A stretch of 6,571 bases of DNA from the NCBI GenBank assembly GCA_021846145.1, contig JAJZCJ010000185.1:1-6571 (forward strand). Reading direction: 5' to 3'. Of this stretch, positions 2 through 6,571 are shown one piece after another; positions within the stretch are counted from its first letter, which is position 1; each line of letters begins with the position of its first letter. The notes under the pieces are model-generated. The model saw only the letters and a list, made by a program, of their open reading frames with translations. It did not search any database and was not told the origin of the DNA. Made by a program: the position numbers and the translations under genes. Origin of the DNA: Bacillota bacterium (GTDB lineage: Bacteria; Bacillota; Bacilli; Alicyclobacillales; SLC66).

Positions 2-337
2 GATCTCTCCTTGGTCGTTGTCCCTGGCTTTGTGTTGCCCACGCAGCGCGTGGGCGGGGTGCGGCAGAAATTGCAAGGATTGATTCAACAGAAACTATCG
101 ACGATGACCGTTCAACTGAGTGAACAGTTTGGCGTCAGCGGGGCGTTGTTGACGCGCATTTTTAGTCGCGAACCAGAAGAGACTGACAAGTTTTCGCATG
201 TGAATCTGGAACTGCGCGATTTGCAGGTGCGCCAATCCGTGGCTGGACGCTGGTTGTTCATGTGGATCGGCATGTTCTCTTCCATAGGACCCGCGCTACT
301 CCATTGCGTTATTTCGCCGAATTTTCGCGGTGCTTGA
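2..337 (+). pseudogene. ABC exporter transmembrane-domain fragment (5' partial, broken at its 3' end)
   Basis: This is the second half of the membrane domain of a fused (membrane plus ATPase) ABC exporter. The reading frame is open from the first bases of the window, so the true start lies upstream; the TTG at 11 is not a credible start. The translated stretch (VLPTQRVGG, then a helix around LSEQFGVSGALLTRIFSRE, then ELRDLQVRQS and GRWLFMWIGMFSSIGPAL) follows the usual order of cytoplasmic helices 3-4 and the start of TM5 in this family. After GPAL at about position 297 the family resemblance stops, and the frame ends at TGA 335-337. The continuation is found in another frame: SIALFRRIFAVLDIEPEVQD, starting at about 300, is the conserved segment just after TM6. 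The rest of TM5, TM6 and their linker (about 44 residues) are therefore missing. What I see is the frame break; the size of the loss is inferred from family architecture. Confidence 0.8.
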
Positions 338-1133
338 TATTGAGCCAGAGGTTCAGGATGGTTCCGTGGTGATGACACCACGCGGTGCGGCGGGTCTAAT
401 TCGCTTAGAAGATGTATCTTTTGCCTATAGAAAATCGGCCAACGACGATCCTACGCTGGTGTTGCAGCATATTAATCTCACGATTGAGCCGGGCCAAACG
501 GTCGCCATCGTGGGGCCAAGCGGGGCCGGGAAATCCACGCTACTTAATCTTATTCCGCGCTTTGCAGATCCGCTTTTTGGGCGCATCCTTATTGACGACC
601 ACGATACCAAATCGTTGACACTCGCATCACTGCGTGGTCAAATGGGTCTCGTCCCTCAAGAGCCGTTCTTTTTTCACGACACCATACTCAACAATATGCG
701 GTTTGCTATGCCTAATGCGACGATGCAAAATATTGAGGTGGCGTGTCGGGCAGCGCAGATTCACGAGATGATTGCCTTGCTACCGGAAGGGTATGACACG
801 GTAGTTGGTGAACGTGGTTACCGCTTGTCTGGCGGTGAGCGGCAACGCCTAGCAATTGCTCGCGTGTTACTGCGGGCACCGCGCATCGTACTGCTCGACG
901 AGGCGACGAGTGCGCTCGATACGCTCGTTGAGCGGCAGATTCAAGCGGCTCTCGCGGTGTTGATGGAGGGACGGACAGCGATTGTGATTGCGCATCGGTT
1001 GTCTACCATTTTGAATGCTGACAACATTGTGGTGCTCCAAGGGGGGGCGATTGTTGCACAAGGCACGCACGACAATCTGCTGACGACAAGCGTGTTGTAC
1101 CAAAAGTTGTATGCGGCTCAGTTCGCTCTCTAG
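330..1133 (+). CDS. ABC exporter ATP-binding domain (3' part of the broken exporter gene)
   Basis: This is the nucleotide-binding domain that powers substrate export by ATP hydrolysis. All core motifs are present, numbered from the GTG at 330: Walker A GPSGAGKST (62-70), Q-loop Q110 in VPQEPFFF, signature LSGGERQR (166-173), Walker B IVLLDEATS with D190 and E191, D-loop around 195-198, and H-loop H222 in IAHRLS. This is the canonical exporter type (MsbA/multidrug-like); the substrate is unknown. The GTG at 330 has no Shine-Dalgarno sequence, and family resemblance continues upstream of it in the same frame to about 300. It is therefore probably not a true start: this piece was the C-terminal half of a single gene with the fragment at 2-337. 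An isolated domain made from 330 would lack its membrane partner. The ATPase itself shows no damage, which suggests either a recent break or an assembly error. The gene ends 7 bases from the stop of the convergent LysE gene. Confidence 0.85.
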   Translation: MLDIEPEVQDGSVVMTPRGAAGLIRLEDVSFAYRKSANDDPTLVLQHINLTIEPGQTVAIVGPSGAGKSTLLNLIPRFADPLFGRILIDDHDTKSLTLASLRGQMGLVPQEPFFFHDTILNNMRFAMPNATMQNIEVACRAAQIHEMIALLPEGYDTVVGERGYRLSGGERQRLAIARVLLRAPRIVLLDEATSALDTLVERQIQAALAVLMEGRTAIVIAHRLSTILNADNIVVLQGGAIVAQGTHDNLLTTSVLYQKLYAAQFAL

Positions 1134-2927: not shown

Positions 2928-3887
2928 ATGCCAATTCTTGATATGCCACTTACGCAATTGCAACAGTACCAAGGGAGTAACCCGCGTCCTGCGGATTTTG
3001 ACGCGTATTGGAGTCGTGCACTCGCGGAAATGCAGGCGGTGAAGCCGGAAGTTGAGTTGATTCCCAGTTCTTTTACTGTGCCCAATGCGGATTGTTTCGA
3101 TCTGTATTTTACGGGTGTGCGTCAGGCGCGCATCCATGCGATGTACCTTCGTCCGAACAATGTATCAGAGCCTCATCCTGCTTTACTGCAATTTCACGGC
3201 TATGCGGGCAGCGCAGGCAGCTGGTCAGAAAAATTAGCGCACGTATCGCTTGGCTGGTCGGTGATCGCCATGGACGCGCGCGGACAGGGCGGGTTATCGG
3301 AGGACACGGGTGGCGTGAAAGGCACCACCTTGCGTGGGCATATCATTCGCGGACTTGATGATCACGAAGATGAACTGTTATTTCGCCAGATTTTTTTAGA
3401 TGCCGCACAACTTGCCAACATTGTCATGGCGTTGCCGGAGGTGGACGCAAATCGGGTAGGAGCGACGGGGTGGTCGCAAGGCGGGGGATTGACAATCGCC
3501 TGCGCGGCACTTGAGCCTCGTATTAAGCGCTTGGCCCCCGTGTACCCGTTTTTGAGCGATTACAGGCGCGTGTGGGACATGGATTTCGACAAAAATGCCT
3601 ACGAAGAGCTTCGGGACTACTTTCGTCGCCATGATCCGCAGCACAAACGGGAAGAGGAGGTGTTCACGCGCCTTGGCTACATTGACGTCCAACACCTTGC
3701 CAATCGCATCCGCGGCGACGTGCTGTTTGGCGTAGGACTGATGGATGAAATATGTCCGCCATCAGCCCAATTTGCCGCCTACAATAAAATCAACGCCTCC
3801 AAGCAGCTTGAGATTTTTCCGGACTTTGGTCATGAGGTGCTGCCGGGAATGCATGATTTGATCACGCAATTTATGCTAGGGCTATGA
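2928..3887 (+). CDS. cah: Cephalosporin-C deacetylase / acetylxylan esterase (CE7 family)
   Basis: This alpha/beta-hydrolase removes acetyl groups from small substrates such as acetylated xylo-oligosaccharides and cephalosporin C; relatives act in the cytoplasm as hexamers. No signal peptide is present, in line with that. From ATG 2928 the protein has 319 residues, essentially the length of Bacillus subtilis Cah, and the N-terminus MPILDMPLTQLQQYQG aligns with the Cah beginning. The catalytic triad is visible: nucleophile Ser183 in GWSQGGG, Asp273 in GLMDEICPPS, and His302 in FGHE. The CE7 landmarks HGYAG (90-94, Tyr92 in the oxyanion region), DARGQGG (116-122) and RGLDD (141-145) are all intact, so the enzyme should be active. 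It follows the phosphatase gene closely. No carbohydrate-use genes lie nearby, so the natural substrate is open. The family assignment is very secure; the exact substrate is not. Confidence 0.95.
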   Translation: MPILDMPLTQLQQYQGSNPRPADFDAYWSRALAEMQAVKPEVELIPSSFTVPNADCFDLYFTGVRQARIHAMYLRPNNVSEPHPALLQFHGYAGSAGSWSEKLAHVSLGWSVIAMDARGQGGLSEDTGGVKGTTLRGHIIRGLDDHEDELLFRQIFLDAAQLANIVMALPEVDANRVGATGWSQGGGLTIACAALEPRIKRLAPVYPFLSDYRRVWDMDFDKNAYEELRDYFRRHDPQHKREEEVFTRLGYIDVQHLANRIRGDVLFGVGLMDEICPPSAQFAAYNKINASKQLEIFPDFGHEVLPGMHDLITQFMLGL

Positions 3888-4174
3888 GAGCAGGGCTGGC
3901 AAAGCGAATGCGATCGATAGGGGTGCGATCAGGCTTTGATTAAGGTAGCGGTAGCGAGGCTTATTGAAAATGAATAAAAGCAGAAGGCAGTGGAGCATAC
4001 GAAAGAATTTGCCGAGTATCGCCGCTAGCGTACTTACTGCGTTTGTTACGCCTTGACAGCAGAATGAATAACTCGGTGATGAGGCATTTACAAGATGCAA
4101 TCAGATCCGGATTAGAGTATGCTGATCGTAAAACAGTCCATCACGATGATACTGTGGGAAAGGATGGGCGATCC
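3888..4174. other. Gap between the esterase and ietA; possible remnant of a minus-strand membrane gene
   Basis: This 287-base stretch has no convincing intact gene. On the minus strand an open frame (about 4050 down to a stop at 3882-3884, overlapping the esterase end tail-to-tail) would encode hydrophobic segments (LHCLLLLFIF, then PLSIAFALPALL). It could be the C-terminal tail of a lost membrane protein, but it has no start signal and I recognise no family. Short direct repeats are visible: TGCGATC at 3909-3915 and 3924-3930, and GGTAGC in tandem at 3944-3955. A perfect TTGACA at 4053-4058 is a candidate -35 for ietA, though only poor -10 sequences follow at the right distance. The ietA reading frame is open upstream to 4043, but that extension is not expected in the family. 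No rho-independent terminator for the esterase was found. Confidence 0.4.
4159..4164 (+). promoter_or_regulatory. Ribosome binding site that supports the ietA start at 4175
   Basis: AAAGGA, within a longer purine run (GGGAAAGGATGGG), ends 10 bases before the ATG at 4175. The earlier in-frame candidates (TTG 4043, ATG 4064, ATG 4079) have no recognisable ribosome binding site. The protein from 4175 begins the way this ATPase family usually begins. Confidence 0.55.
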
Positions 4175-5170
4175 ATGAACTCGACCTTGCTAAAACGATT
4201 GTTTCGATCGATATCTTCTGGTAGTGACGATGATGTACGCAAAGTTGCGCGAATCATCATTGACGAGGAAATCAAGAAGGGGCACACGACGTTATCTAAA
4301 GAGTTGGATACGATCTTGTCCTCTGCTTCTAACACACATGCGTCAACATCTCGCGTCGTTCCGATGATGGGTGCGGGTCTCACGGAATTCCCCAAGAGCA
4401 AGCGATCACAGACGCCACTGGCTACGCACGTTCCTTTTGAACGGCTGAAGCATCATATGGTGTTGGCACCTGATACGGAAGAGCGATTTCAACGAATTGA
4501 AAAGGAGTTTGCAGCTAGGGAGAGATTAGCCAAATTCGGGTTTCAGCCACGCAGGAAAATCCTGTTGTATGGCCCACCAGGATGTGGGAAAACCATGGGT
4601 GCAGAGCGTTTGGCGTGGAATACCGGACTGCCGCTGATCAAGGTGCGTTTTGATGCAGTTGTATCCTCCTATCTTGGCGAAACTGCCGTCAACTTGCGTT
4701 CTATTTTCGATTCAGCTCGGCAAACACCGTGTGTGTTATTTGTGGATGAAGCCGATTCTCTGGCACGTTCTCGTCGATCAGACCAAGAGCTTGGTGAGAT
4801 CAAGCGAGTGGTAAATTCGTTTTTGCAATTGCTTGATGAATTTGATTCACCCGGATTGTTTGTGGCCGCCACGAACTTGGATGATCAATTGGATGAAGCC
4901 ATTTGGCGTCGATTTGATGAGATCATTCAGGTTGGCAAACCAGGTAGGCCGGAGATCCGAGAATTAATGATACAAACGTTGTCAGCCATGAAATCTGAAC
5001 TTCGGGATTGGGATATTTTATTGCAAGCTTGTGAGGGATTTTCTGCCGCGCAAATCGTCAGGGCTTGCCAAGATGCGGCAAAAAATACTATTCTAGAGGG
5101 AGATAAAGTGGTGTCTCAGCAAGCGCTTCTCGATGCGATTGCGAGCCTGGCCTTACCTAGAAGGGGATAG
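4175..5170 (+). CDS. ietA: IetA-like AAA+ ATPase (IetAS defence / toxin-antitoxin pair)
   Basis: This is a classical AAA+ ATPase of 331 residues, partner of the S8 protease encoded next. The small N-terminal helical domain (about 1-50: an MNSTLLKRLF helix, a DDD-rich turn, then EEIKKGHTTLSKEL) matches the start pattern of IetA-type proteins and argues for this ATG over upstream starts. A linker (50-85) leads to the ATPase core: Walker A GPPGCGKT (133-140), a pore-loop-like SYLGET (165-170), Walker B VLFVDEAD with D191 and E192, sensor 1 Asn234 in AATN, and arginine fingers in WRRFDE (R246, R247). A small lid domain follows, with sensor-2-like GFSAAQIVRA (288-297). All catalytic residues are intact. 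The protease starts 3 bases after the stop, and its ribosome binding site lies inside this gene's end, indicating tight coupling. In the Agrobacterium Ti-plasmid pair the ATPase acts as antitoxin to the protease. That role here is inferred from homology and gene order. Confidence 0.88.
   Translation: MNSTLLKRLFRSISSGSDDDVRKVARIIIDEEIKKGHTTLSKELDTILSSASNTHASTSRVVPMMGAGLTEFPKSKRSQTPLATHVPFERLKHHMVLAPDTEERFQRIEKEFAARERLAKFGFQPRRKILLYGPPGCGKTMGAERLAWNTGLPLIKVRFDAVVSSYLGETAVNLRSIFDSARQTPCVLFVDEADSLARSRRSDQELGEIKRVVNSFLQLLDEFDSPGLFVAATNLDDQLDEAIWRRFDEIIQVGKPGRPEIRELMIQTLSAMKSELRDWDILLQACEGFSAAQIVRACQDAAKNTILEGDKVVSQQALLDAIASLALPRRG
5161..5166 (+). promoter_or_regulatory. Ribosome binding site of ietS
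   Basis: AAGGGG sits in the last codons of ietA, 7 bases before the ATG at 5174. It fixes the protease start and ties translation of the two genes together. Confidence 0.7.
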
Positions 5171-5173
5171 TCA

Positions 5174-6571
5174 ATGCCAAATAAAGAACAGTTCCCGCAC
5201 ATACCTTTGTTATGGGTACGAGACGCCCCTCCAAAGACTGTGCCAAGACCTATACCTTCCCCTGCTCAGACTACTGAGAATCTTAGCAACCGTGCATTGC
5301 ATCATCGTAAAATTGAGGGGGCCATTCAGCGATTATTAGAAGATGATCGATTGGTCAAGGCCGATCGATTACAGCAGAGCCTTCCGAGCATTGATGATCA
5401 CATCGCGTTATTTCTTCAGATTGACGGACAAAAACTCAAGGTTGATGACCTTCGCAAGTACGACATTGAAATCATTGCAGAACTTGACGACGGTTTTATC
5501 ATTGGGTGTTCATCCGATCTTACATTGTCCGCATTACGCAAGAAAATCGATAAATTTCTTGGTGGCAAACAAAATGATGTAGCGGGATTATACAACATCA
5601 ATGAGGGATTCGGGTGGAGACCTGAGCAGATTCTCTCTCCTGATCTTTGGGAACGCTGGGTGGATCTTCGTGACGATGAGATCATCATGGTCGATATTGG
5701 CGTTGCCTGTTTAGGGATTACTTCAATTTCAGAGCGACCCCATCAGGATTCCTATCATTCTGAGGAGAAGTTCATGATAGCCATAGAAAAATGGGAGAGG
5801 CGATATCGAGAAATTTTGCTTTCGTGGGATGATCTTCAAAGAGAGCGTTCAGACCAACTCAGATTTTTTCTATCTGCTTACGGATTCGATCCTATAGACG
5901 AATTTAATGAGAATATCACAGAAGATATAGCACGGTTACCAGATAGCTTCACCTGTCGGGCGAAGATTAGTGGAAAATGTCTGCGCGATTTAACTCTGAA
6001 TTTCCAATATGTATTTGATATTTCTACTGTGGATTTAACTGAAATTGCTCCCGATGCATCGGGGGTTGAGGGTGATCAGGAAATCCAAGACGTAACAGTG
6101 CTACCGCCTCAACTTGATGCACCTTTTGTTTGCGTGATCGACAGTGGAATGCAAGAGAATCATCGTTTGTTGCAAGCTGCCATTGATCATGGCTACTCTC
6201 GAAGCTGGATAGGAAATGCGTCAGATACGGCAGATTATGTGTCTCCGGGTGGTCATGGAACAAGGGTGGCTGGAGCGATACTTTATCCCCAAGAAATTCC
6301 TAGTAGTGTGGAGCACCATGCAGCTTTCTGGTTGCAAAATGTGCGGGTATTGGATGATCACAATGGTATGCCGAACACTTTATTTCCTCCCAAAATTATT
6401 GGCGATACAGTCCATGAATTTTATCACGGACCAACGCAAACGCGACTATATAATCACTCTATAGCATCCACAACTTCTTGCCGACTGCAAAAGATGAGTG
6501 CATGGGCGGCAGAGATTGATTACCAATCGTGGCAATATGACGTGCTTTTTGTGTTGGCCGCAGGCAATGTC
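5174..6571 (+). CDS. ietS: IetS-like subtilisin-family (S8) serine protease, 3' partial
   Basis: The frame is open for 466 codons from ATG 5174 to the window edge without a stop; the gene continues beyond. Residues 1-310 form an N-terminal region without a signal peptide. It opens FPHIPL, followed by a proline-rich stretch (about 19-32), then acidic mixed alpha/beta sequence with SSDLTLSALRKKIDKFL (about 112-128), as in other S8 proteins paired with this ATPase. The subtilase domain starts at about 315: catalytic Asp323 in VIDSGM, catalytic His361 in GGHGTRVAG, and oxyanion-hole Asn465 in LAAGN at the very end. The nucleophile Ser (GTS-A motif) would lie beyond the window. Absence of an export signal points to an intracellular protease, unlike most subtilisins, and fits a toxic or abortive defence effector. 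G+C is low in sampled stretches (38-42%) compared with 60-67% in sampled stretches of the phosphatase and esterase genes. Family assignment is strong; the cellular target is unknown. Confidence 0.88.
   Translation, partial: MPNKEQFPHIPLLWVRDAPPKTVPRPIPSPAQTTENLSNRALHHRKIEGAIQRLLEDDRLVKADRLQQSLPSIDDHIALFLQIDGQKLKVDDLRKYDIEIIAELDDGFIIGCSSDLTLSALRKKIDKFLGGKQNDVAGLYNINEGFGWRPEQILSPDLWERWVDLRDDEIIMVDIGVACLGITSISERPHQDSYHSEEKFMIAIEKWERRYREILLSWDDLQRERSDQLRFFLSAYGFDPIDEFNENITEDIARLPDSFTCRAKISGKCLRDLTLNFQYVFDISTVDLTEIAPDASGVEGDQEIQDVTVLPPQLDAPFVCVIDSGMQENHRLLQAAIDHGYSRSWIGNASDTADYVSPGGHGTRVAGAILYPQEIPSSVEHHAAFWLQNVRVLDDHNGMPNTLFPPKIIGDTVHEFYHGPTQTRLYNHSIASTTSCRLQKMSAWAAEIDYQSWQYDVLFVLAAGNV

Follow-up and report, generated by a model that had tools for sequence, protein, structure and literature searches.

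The closest described counterparts of the gene pair studied here are IetAS, the sgiAT pair of Salmonella genomic island 1 (SGI1), and the 0132/0133 pair (TA132/3) of mycoplasmas. For sgiAT, protease toxicity and its rescue by the ATPase have been described in E. coli, and the pair is reported to promote maintenance of the SGI1 island; under its own promoter, sgiAT gave no post-segregational killing (PMC5006074). In the mycoplasma pair, loss of the ATPase alone is lethal and loss of both genes is viable, according to the accessible parts of two reports, in which no anti-phage test of the pair was found (PMC6755753, PMC8562856). The mechanism of IetAS, which a preliminary description of the present locus had called poorly understood, is indeed termed unknown in the available portions of PMC9958689, PMC11878078, and PMC6755753. 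For the clade of the pair described here, no anti-phage or toxin experiment was found in the literature.

A divergent IetAS gene pair, probably of Bacillota origin

The window analyzed here spans positions 1 to 6,571 of contig JAJZCJ010000185.1. Within it, a complete AAA+ ATPase gene (ietA) is followed, in the same direction and after a gap of three bases, by a subtilase gene (ietS), as first described, and each has its own Shine-Dalgarno-like sequence, the second lying inside the end of ietA (Table 1). An alternative in-frame TTG at 4043 would extend IetA to 375 aa, but two near relatives (P0001 and P0002) begin at the Met that corresponds to its MNS... start. The leader ahead of ietA aligns with two related contigs (L001 and L026) from approximately the last 20 bases of a helicase gene up to ietA, with 1- and 2-base indels that disrupt any reading frame, and no sigma-70-type promoter match was found on its plus strand.

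Table 1. Positions of the genes, conserved motifs, and modeled domains of the IetAS pair in the window.
Feature	Coordinates	Strand	Details
Conserved non-coding leader of ietA	4045..4174	+	Alignments with L001/L026
Shine-Dalgarno-like AAAGGA of ietA	4159..4164	+	10 nt 5' of the ietA ATG; sequence
ietA, AAA+ ATPase	4175..5170	+	331 aa, complete; ATG 4175, TAG 5170
IetA N-terminal three-helix bundle, residues 3-52	4181..4330	+	AlphaFold2 model
Walker A, GPPGCGKT	4571..4594	+	G133, P135, G136, G138, K139 invariant in 57 rows
Pore-loop-1-like SYLGET	4667..4684	+	Y/F in 51/57 rows, L/M in 57/57, G in 57/57
Walker B, LFVDEAD	4736..4756	+	D191, E192 invariant in 57 rows
Putative sensor-1 Asn (AATN) and paired Arg (WRRF)	4865..4915	+	N234, R245, R246 invariant in 57 rows
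Shine-Dalgarno-like AAGGGGA of ietS	5161..5167	+	Within the 3' end of ietA; sequence
ietS, subtilase, first 466 aa	5174..6571	+	ATG 5174; open frame interrupted by the window boundary
First small alpha/beta domain of IetS (beta-alpha-beta-beta-alpha-beta)	5402..5602	+	L001 model residues 78-144, one-residue offset
Propeptide-like (I9-position) domain of IetS with long helical insert	5678..6040	+	L001 IetS model residues 170-290
Catalytic Asp323 of IetS	6140..6142	+	Invariant in 62 rows
Catalytic His361 of IetS	6254..6256	+	Invariant in 62 rows
Oxyanion-hole Asn465 of IetS	6566..6568	+	Invariant in 62 rows

The IetAS identity put forward in the preliminary description is borne out by defense-system profiles: IetA matches the PADLOC IetA profile with E 1.3e-84 (residues 6-323 on profile positions 7-319 of 374), and the 466-aa IetS fragment matches PADLOC IetS with E 2.2e-20. 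The corresponding Pfam matches are AAA for IetA (E 3.4e-33) and Peptidase_S8 for IetS (E 8.5e-13). Because the window stops one codon after N465, the catalytic serine of IetS falls outside it, as had been supposed. A database protein of 758 aa (P0123), found with a relative's IetS as the query, is identical to the window IetS over 466/466 residues and holds Ser597 in the motif LGTSFAA, so that an objection based on a lacking serine fails; D323 and H361 in the window and S597 in P0123 complete the Asp-His-Ser triad, and the four D/H/N/S positions are invariant in 62 rows. P0123 itself matches PADLOC IetS with E 7.5e-51 (residues 282-717) and Pfam S8 with E 2e-29, and Pfam PF27160 is listed (precomputed) for it and for other proteins. 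The IetS profile matches begin at approximately residue 276, leaving the residues ahead of it unmatched, and visual inspection revealed no signal peptide.

Both members of the pair score below the NCBIfam equivalog cut-offs, with 236.7 bits against 510 for IetA on IteA (E 4.3e-70) and 118 bits against 900 for P0123 on IteS, and we therefore assign them to a divergent IetAS subfamily. The pair in another genome of the Bacillota set (L078) also remains under these cut-offs (364.6 and 396.7 bits against 510 and 900). Judged from sequence, the window pair is confirmed as a real, divergent IetAS; family, gene order, and spacing are as first described, and the system is of a known kind. P0123 ends 113 residues short of the 871-aa IetS of a relative (L001), which may reflect an early stop or a contig edge, and the C terminus of the window copy is possibly truncated.

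In the AlphaFold2 model of IetA (mean pLDDT 85.5), the three-helix bundle is followed by a low-confidence linker (residues 53-70). A MIT-like identity for this bundle was considered and dropped, as Pfam gave p31comet only (E 0.03, below cut-off). The modeled AAA domain aligns structurally with those of PAN, Rpt, FtsH, p97, and Vps4, and the features sought for a proteasomal/FtsH-type motor are found together in IetA: a classic AAA fold, Walker A and B, arginine fingers, and an aromatic pore loop. The aromatic-hydrophobic-Gly pattern of SYLGET is taken here to be the pore loop 1 motif, while the Asn of AATN and the paired Arg of WRRF presumably mark the sensor-1 and arginine-finger positions. 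On these models, IetA is predicted to be a motor of the PAN/p97/FtsH type.

Models predict for IetS a subtilisin core that is preceded by a propeptide-like domain and followed by a KP-43-like sandwich. By structural alignment, residues 170..661 of the L001 IetS model match chain residues 6..365 of unautoprocessed pro-subtilisin E; the list of structural matches is filled by the catalytic domain and barely covers the parts of the model outside residues 307-670. The end of P0123 at residue 758 falls in a low-confidence acidic loop, beyond which the 871-aa model completes the sandwich with its last three strands and a closing helix. For the N-terminal part of IetS, no PDB chain was matched at E 0.01 by phmmer with the whole 871-aa L001 IetS, a profile of its residues 1 to ∼313 gave matches no better than E 0.08, and Pfam returned PG_binding_2 only (E 0.017, below cut-off).

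The genes located 5' of ietA encode parts of an ABC exporter, LysE, O6-methylguanine methyltransferase, a low-molecular-weight phosphatase, and an acetyl xylan esterase-family protein; by Pfam these are metabolic genes, and no defense gene is present upstream of ietA in the window. The GC content drops from 0.53-0.54 near the esterase gene to 0.44-0.45 within ietS, a contrast that says little because GC also falls to 0.46 at 2001-2800. The membrane and ATPase parts of the ABC exporter (2-337 and 330-1133, plus strand) occupy different frames with an 8-base overlap, and the gene at 2-1133 looks split or frameshifted. Between the esterase gene and ietA lies a reverse-strand open frame (3882-4100) of 72 aa, rich in hydrophobic residues; it had no Pfam match and a best E of at least 0.41 among the matches listed for the fetched loci, and it is probably not a gene, so that none is claimed.

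The closest two loci belong to Bacillota metagenome-assembled genomes (MAGs), and the esterase gene adjoining ietA has homologues 68-75% identical in four genomes from the family of one of these MAGs; both observations fit the probable Bacillota host suggested earlier. The chromosomal location given in the same account fits the metabolic genes upstream, which fall short of proving it. Placement of the pair in a Bacillota chromosome is probable.

Relatives, defense neighbors, and one-sided decay

Two Bacillota MAG contigs (L001/L072 and L026) carry IetA proteins 90-92% identical to that of the window. The first, a single contig of MAG DX2.bin20 with IetA 90% and IetS (871 aa) 74% identical to the window pair, encodes in one direction a helicase, IetA, IetS, BrxA, BrxB, BrxC, PglX, and PglZ, followed in the same direction by a DrmD/BrxHI-type helicase, a 201-aa open frame that PADLOC does not recognize, and a PrrC-like protein of the AAA_13 type; 164 bases separate the end of ietS from brxA. 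The PrrC-like protein (L072:610-2925, minus strand; PADLOC PDC-S06) stands at the far end of this IetAS-BREX island. The helicase located 5' of ietA has the composition DUF4011-MTES_1575-DUF3320 and is recognized by PADLOC as PDC-S37 and also as Hhe. In the second contig (L026), the same helicase precedes ietA. This ietA diverges from the family near residue 303, at most 0.1 kb before the contig stops, and the remaining sequence shows no ietS.

Similarity of the window to these contigs begins at 4045-4070, where their helicase gene is just ending, and the window is therefore considered to be without the helicase; our claim of similarity is restricted to ∼4045 onward. A decayed helicase remnant at 3888-4061 was rejected, since shuffled sequences often scored equally high: among dinucleotide shuffles, 54/1000 (L001) and 382/1000 (L026) did so in local alignment and 99/1000 and 516/1000 in anchored alignment, as did 22/300 and 207/300 earlier mononucleotide shuffles. 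The genes brxC, pglX, and pglZ adjoin the pair in L001/L072 and in L078; the window ends inside ietS.

Neighbors were scanned in 14 of the 26 Bacillota-set loci (L001, L002, and 12 of the 24 in L077-L100), mostly the large or adjacent ones, and a PADLOC-recognized defense protein was found nearby in 10 of the 14, a count that this size-based choice biases upwards. BREX is near the pair in L001 and L078, and type I restriction in L084, L088, L096, and L099; Wadjet is adjacent in L095 and ∼4.5 kb away in L002, Hma is ∼4.5 kb away in L083, and Drt2 is present in L097. The remaining four (L077, L079, L080, and L087) had no defense protein among the neighbors checked.

At E 0.001, related AAA motors led the IetA model to match every one of the 199 Bacillota genomes and of the 14 control genomes, and hence only scores above ∼220 bits were counted as IetA (22 genomes, including G107, G024, G090, and G014 with partial IetA). 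PglZ occurs in 8 of these 22 genomes vs. 27 of the 177 others (Fisher p 0.021). The two share a cluster in G001 and G118 only, and in the other six they are on separate contigs or distant from each other; we give this BREX co-occurrence statistic little weight. A term search of the main text of a paper on the BREX landscape (PMC12839542) returned no 'subtilisin', 'subtilase', 'DUF4011', or 'Iet'. Plasmid records with an IetA-like match over at least 80% of the query number 517, a figure that includes other AAA proteins. Five weak matches (23-29% identical) were found in phage records, and no viral_contigs DNA matched patterns derived from P0123.

Natural loss of one partner was examined from both sides. 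The IetA-centered set held 28 loci, reduced to 26 by dropping L028 (27% identical, not IetA) and setting L026 aside. IetS occupies one open frame in 19 of the 26, including L006, where its N-part is duplicated, and L010, where it starts at model position 30; in the other seven (L002, L008, L013, L014, L015, L017, and L019) an intact IetA accompanies an IetS that is broken, cut, or missing, three of these (L013, L014, and L019) lying within ∼1.6 kb of a contig end. In the cyanobacterial L008, L013, and L015, ietS appears to have been cut by an insertion or large deletion while ietA is open. From the IetS-centered set of 244 cyanobacterial genomes, 24 matches representing 22 genes were obtained, 19 intact and three broken (L102, L113/L124, and L121). 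None of the 19 intact IetS genes lacks an open IetA directly upstream, five of these IetA frames running over the border of the retrieved segment; among the three broken ones, an open IetA accompanies two, and none is visible at L113/L124. The asymmetry (7/26 vs. 0/19) gives a one-sided Fisher p of 0.014, with relatedness ignored. The sets overlap (L005 is L109, and L019 is apparently the same locus as L121), and they consist of draft and MAG contigs, where frameshifts can be assembly errors.

Outside these counts, an open IetA is paired with a partial IetS in L086 of the Bacillota set, L092-L094 and L100 match IetA in part and show no IetS, and L081 has no IetS in the remaining 0.9 kb of its contig. 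The IetA-like AAA motors of L092, L093, and L094 are matched from model position ∼56-68 onward, with no IetS match on the 20 kb retrieved, and perhaps form a separate family. In two cyanobacterial loci, IetS carries a partial extra copy of its N-terminal region in front of the regular one (L006:11040-14462, 1140 aa; L110/L123, a 1068-aa open frame). The one-sided decay fits IetS as a toxin and IetA as its restraint, an antitoxin being able to outlive its toxin.

Mechanism and rival explanations

We consider it likely that the pair is a divergent IetAS in which IetA restrains the toxin IetS, whose release upon infection or loss of IetA halts growth. IetS would be an intracellular subtilase with its own propeptide-like domain, and IetA a protein-unfolding AAA+ motor that assembles into a ring, binds IetS, and keeps it harmless in the healthy cell. 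As a translocating motor, judged by its pore loop, IetA could keep IetS in, or return it to, a propeptide-blocked state; infection or loss of IetA would break this hold, and the freed IetS would cut host proteins and stop growth, such that the infected or element-losing cell does not propagate. Toxin and antitoxin roles in this clade are suggested by analogy with the related pairs, and we infer that IetA forms a ring, binds IetS directly, and depends on ATP, as well as what triggers the release and what IetS cuts. In favor of this restraint of a toxin we count the profile matches, the invariant motifs, the asymmetry of decay, the defense neighbors, and the related toxin-antitoxin pairs. Counted against it are the scores under the NCBIfam cut-offs, the 113 residues missing from a possibly damaged P0123, the metabolic upstream genes of the window, the damaged ietA end of L026, the four loci of 14 without defense neighbors, and the draft and MAG nature of the contigs.

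The pair could instead form an ATP-dependent protease, comparable to a split FtsH or to the PAN-proteasome, in which the motor would deliver unfolded proteins of the phage or host to IetS, making IetA an activator, not an antitoxin. The fold of the IetA AAA domain, closest to the PAN, Rpt, and FtsH motors that feed proteases, and its translocation-type pore loop speak for such a machine, which we nonetheless consider quite improbable: IetA is found on its own whereas no lone intact IetS was observed, no HbYX-like docking tail (sought by eye) is seen at the IetA C terminus, and in the related pairs the protease is toxic alone and relieved by the ATPase (PMC5006074, PMC6755753, PMC8562856). It also seems unlikely that the pair chiefly stabilizes its carrier DNA as an island or plasmid addiction module, with phage defense secondary. 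Relatives on plasmids (with the 517 records including other AAA proteins) and the reported island maintenance by the SGI1 pair would agree with addiction, whereas recognized defense genes near 10 of the 14 examined relatives, and the absence of post-segregational killing by the SGI1 pair under its own promoter, argue against it (PMC5006074).

A doubtful though possible reading concerns the window copy alone, which may be a decaying remnant with an intact IetA beside an IetS without the end of its sandwich; this would be compatible with restraint of a toxin in the family as a whole. The end of P0123 ahead of the last three strands and final helix, and the seven relatives with an intact IetA and a broken or missing IetS, are consistent with decay, yet the catalytic core of P0123 is complete and its end is possibly the edge of its contig of 9,997 bases. 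A more speculative proposal, to which we assign very low probability, is that IetAS, in this clade and related Bacillota, guards the BREX, type I restriction, or Wadjet systems whose genes share its row: the motor would sense their failure, for example as phage anti-restriction, and free the self-propeptided subtilase for a last-resort suicide. PrrC, which guards a type I restriction enzyme, is the model for such a guard.

Returning to the likely restraint of IetS by IetA, the propeptide-like domain in the IetS model means that IetA may act on the zymogen step, and since some Bacillota relatives have BREX or type I restriction genes as immediate neighbors, a trigger linked to these systems can be tested. 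These two features are the leads offered by the locus. If true, a restriction-linked trigger would connect DNA-targeting immunity with a suicide step carried out by a protease; if it is not confirmed, the window adds a further copy of a known defense pair.

Comparison with known systems

The nearest complete relative, L001/L072, has the helicase 5' and brxA 3' of its pair, whereas the window pair has the acetyl xylan esterase-family gene at its 5' side. The mycoplasma 0132/0133 pair consists of an ATPase of 353 aa and a subtilase of 757 aa, a shorter protease. The sgiAT pair likewise combines an ATPase antitoxin with a subtilase toxin and resides on an enterobacterial island. The window pair differs from IetAS as delimited by NCBIfam IteA/IteS in falling under the equivalog cut-offs and in the IetS residues before ∼276, which lie outside the profile matches. 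With IetAS in the wider sense (ietAS of pTiC58, PADLOC IetA/IetS, and NCBIfam IteA/IteS), it shares an ATPase gene directly 5' of a gene for a subtilase without an apparent signal peptide, and the same motifs.
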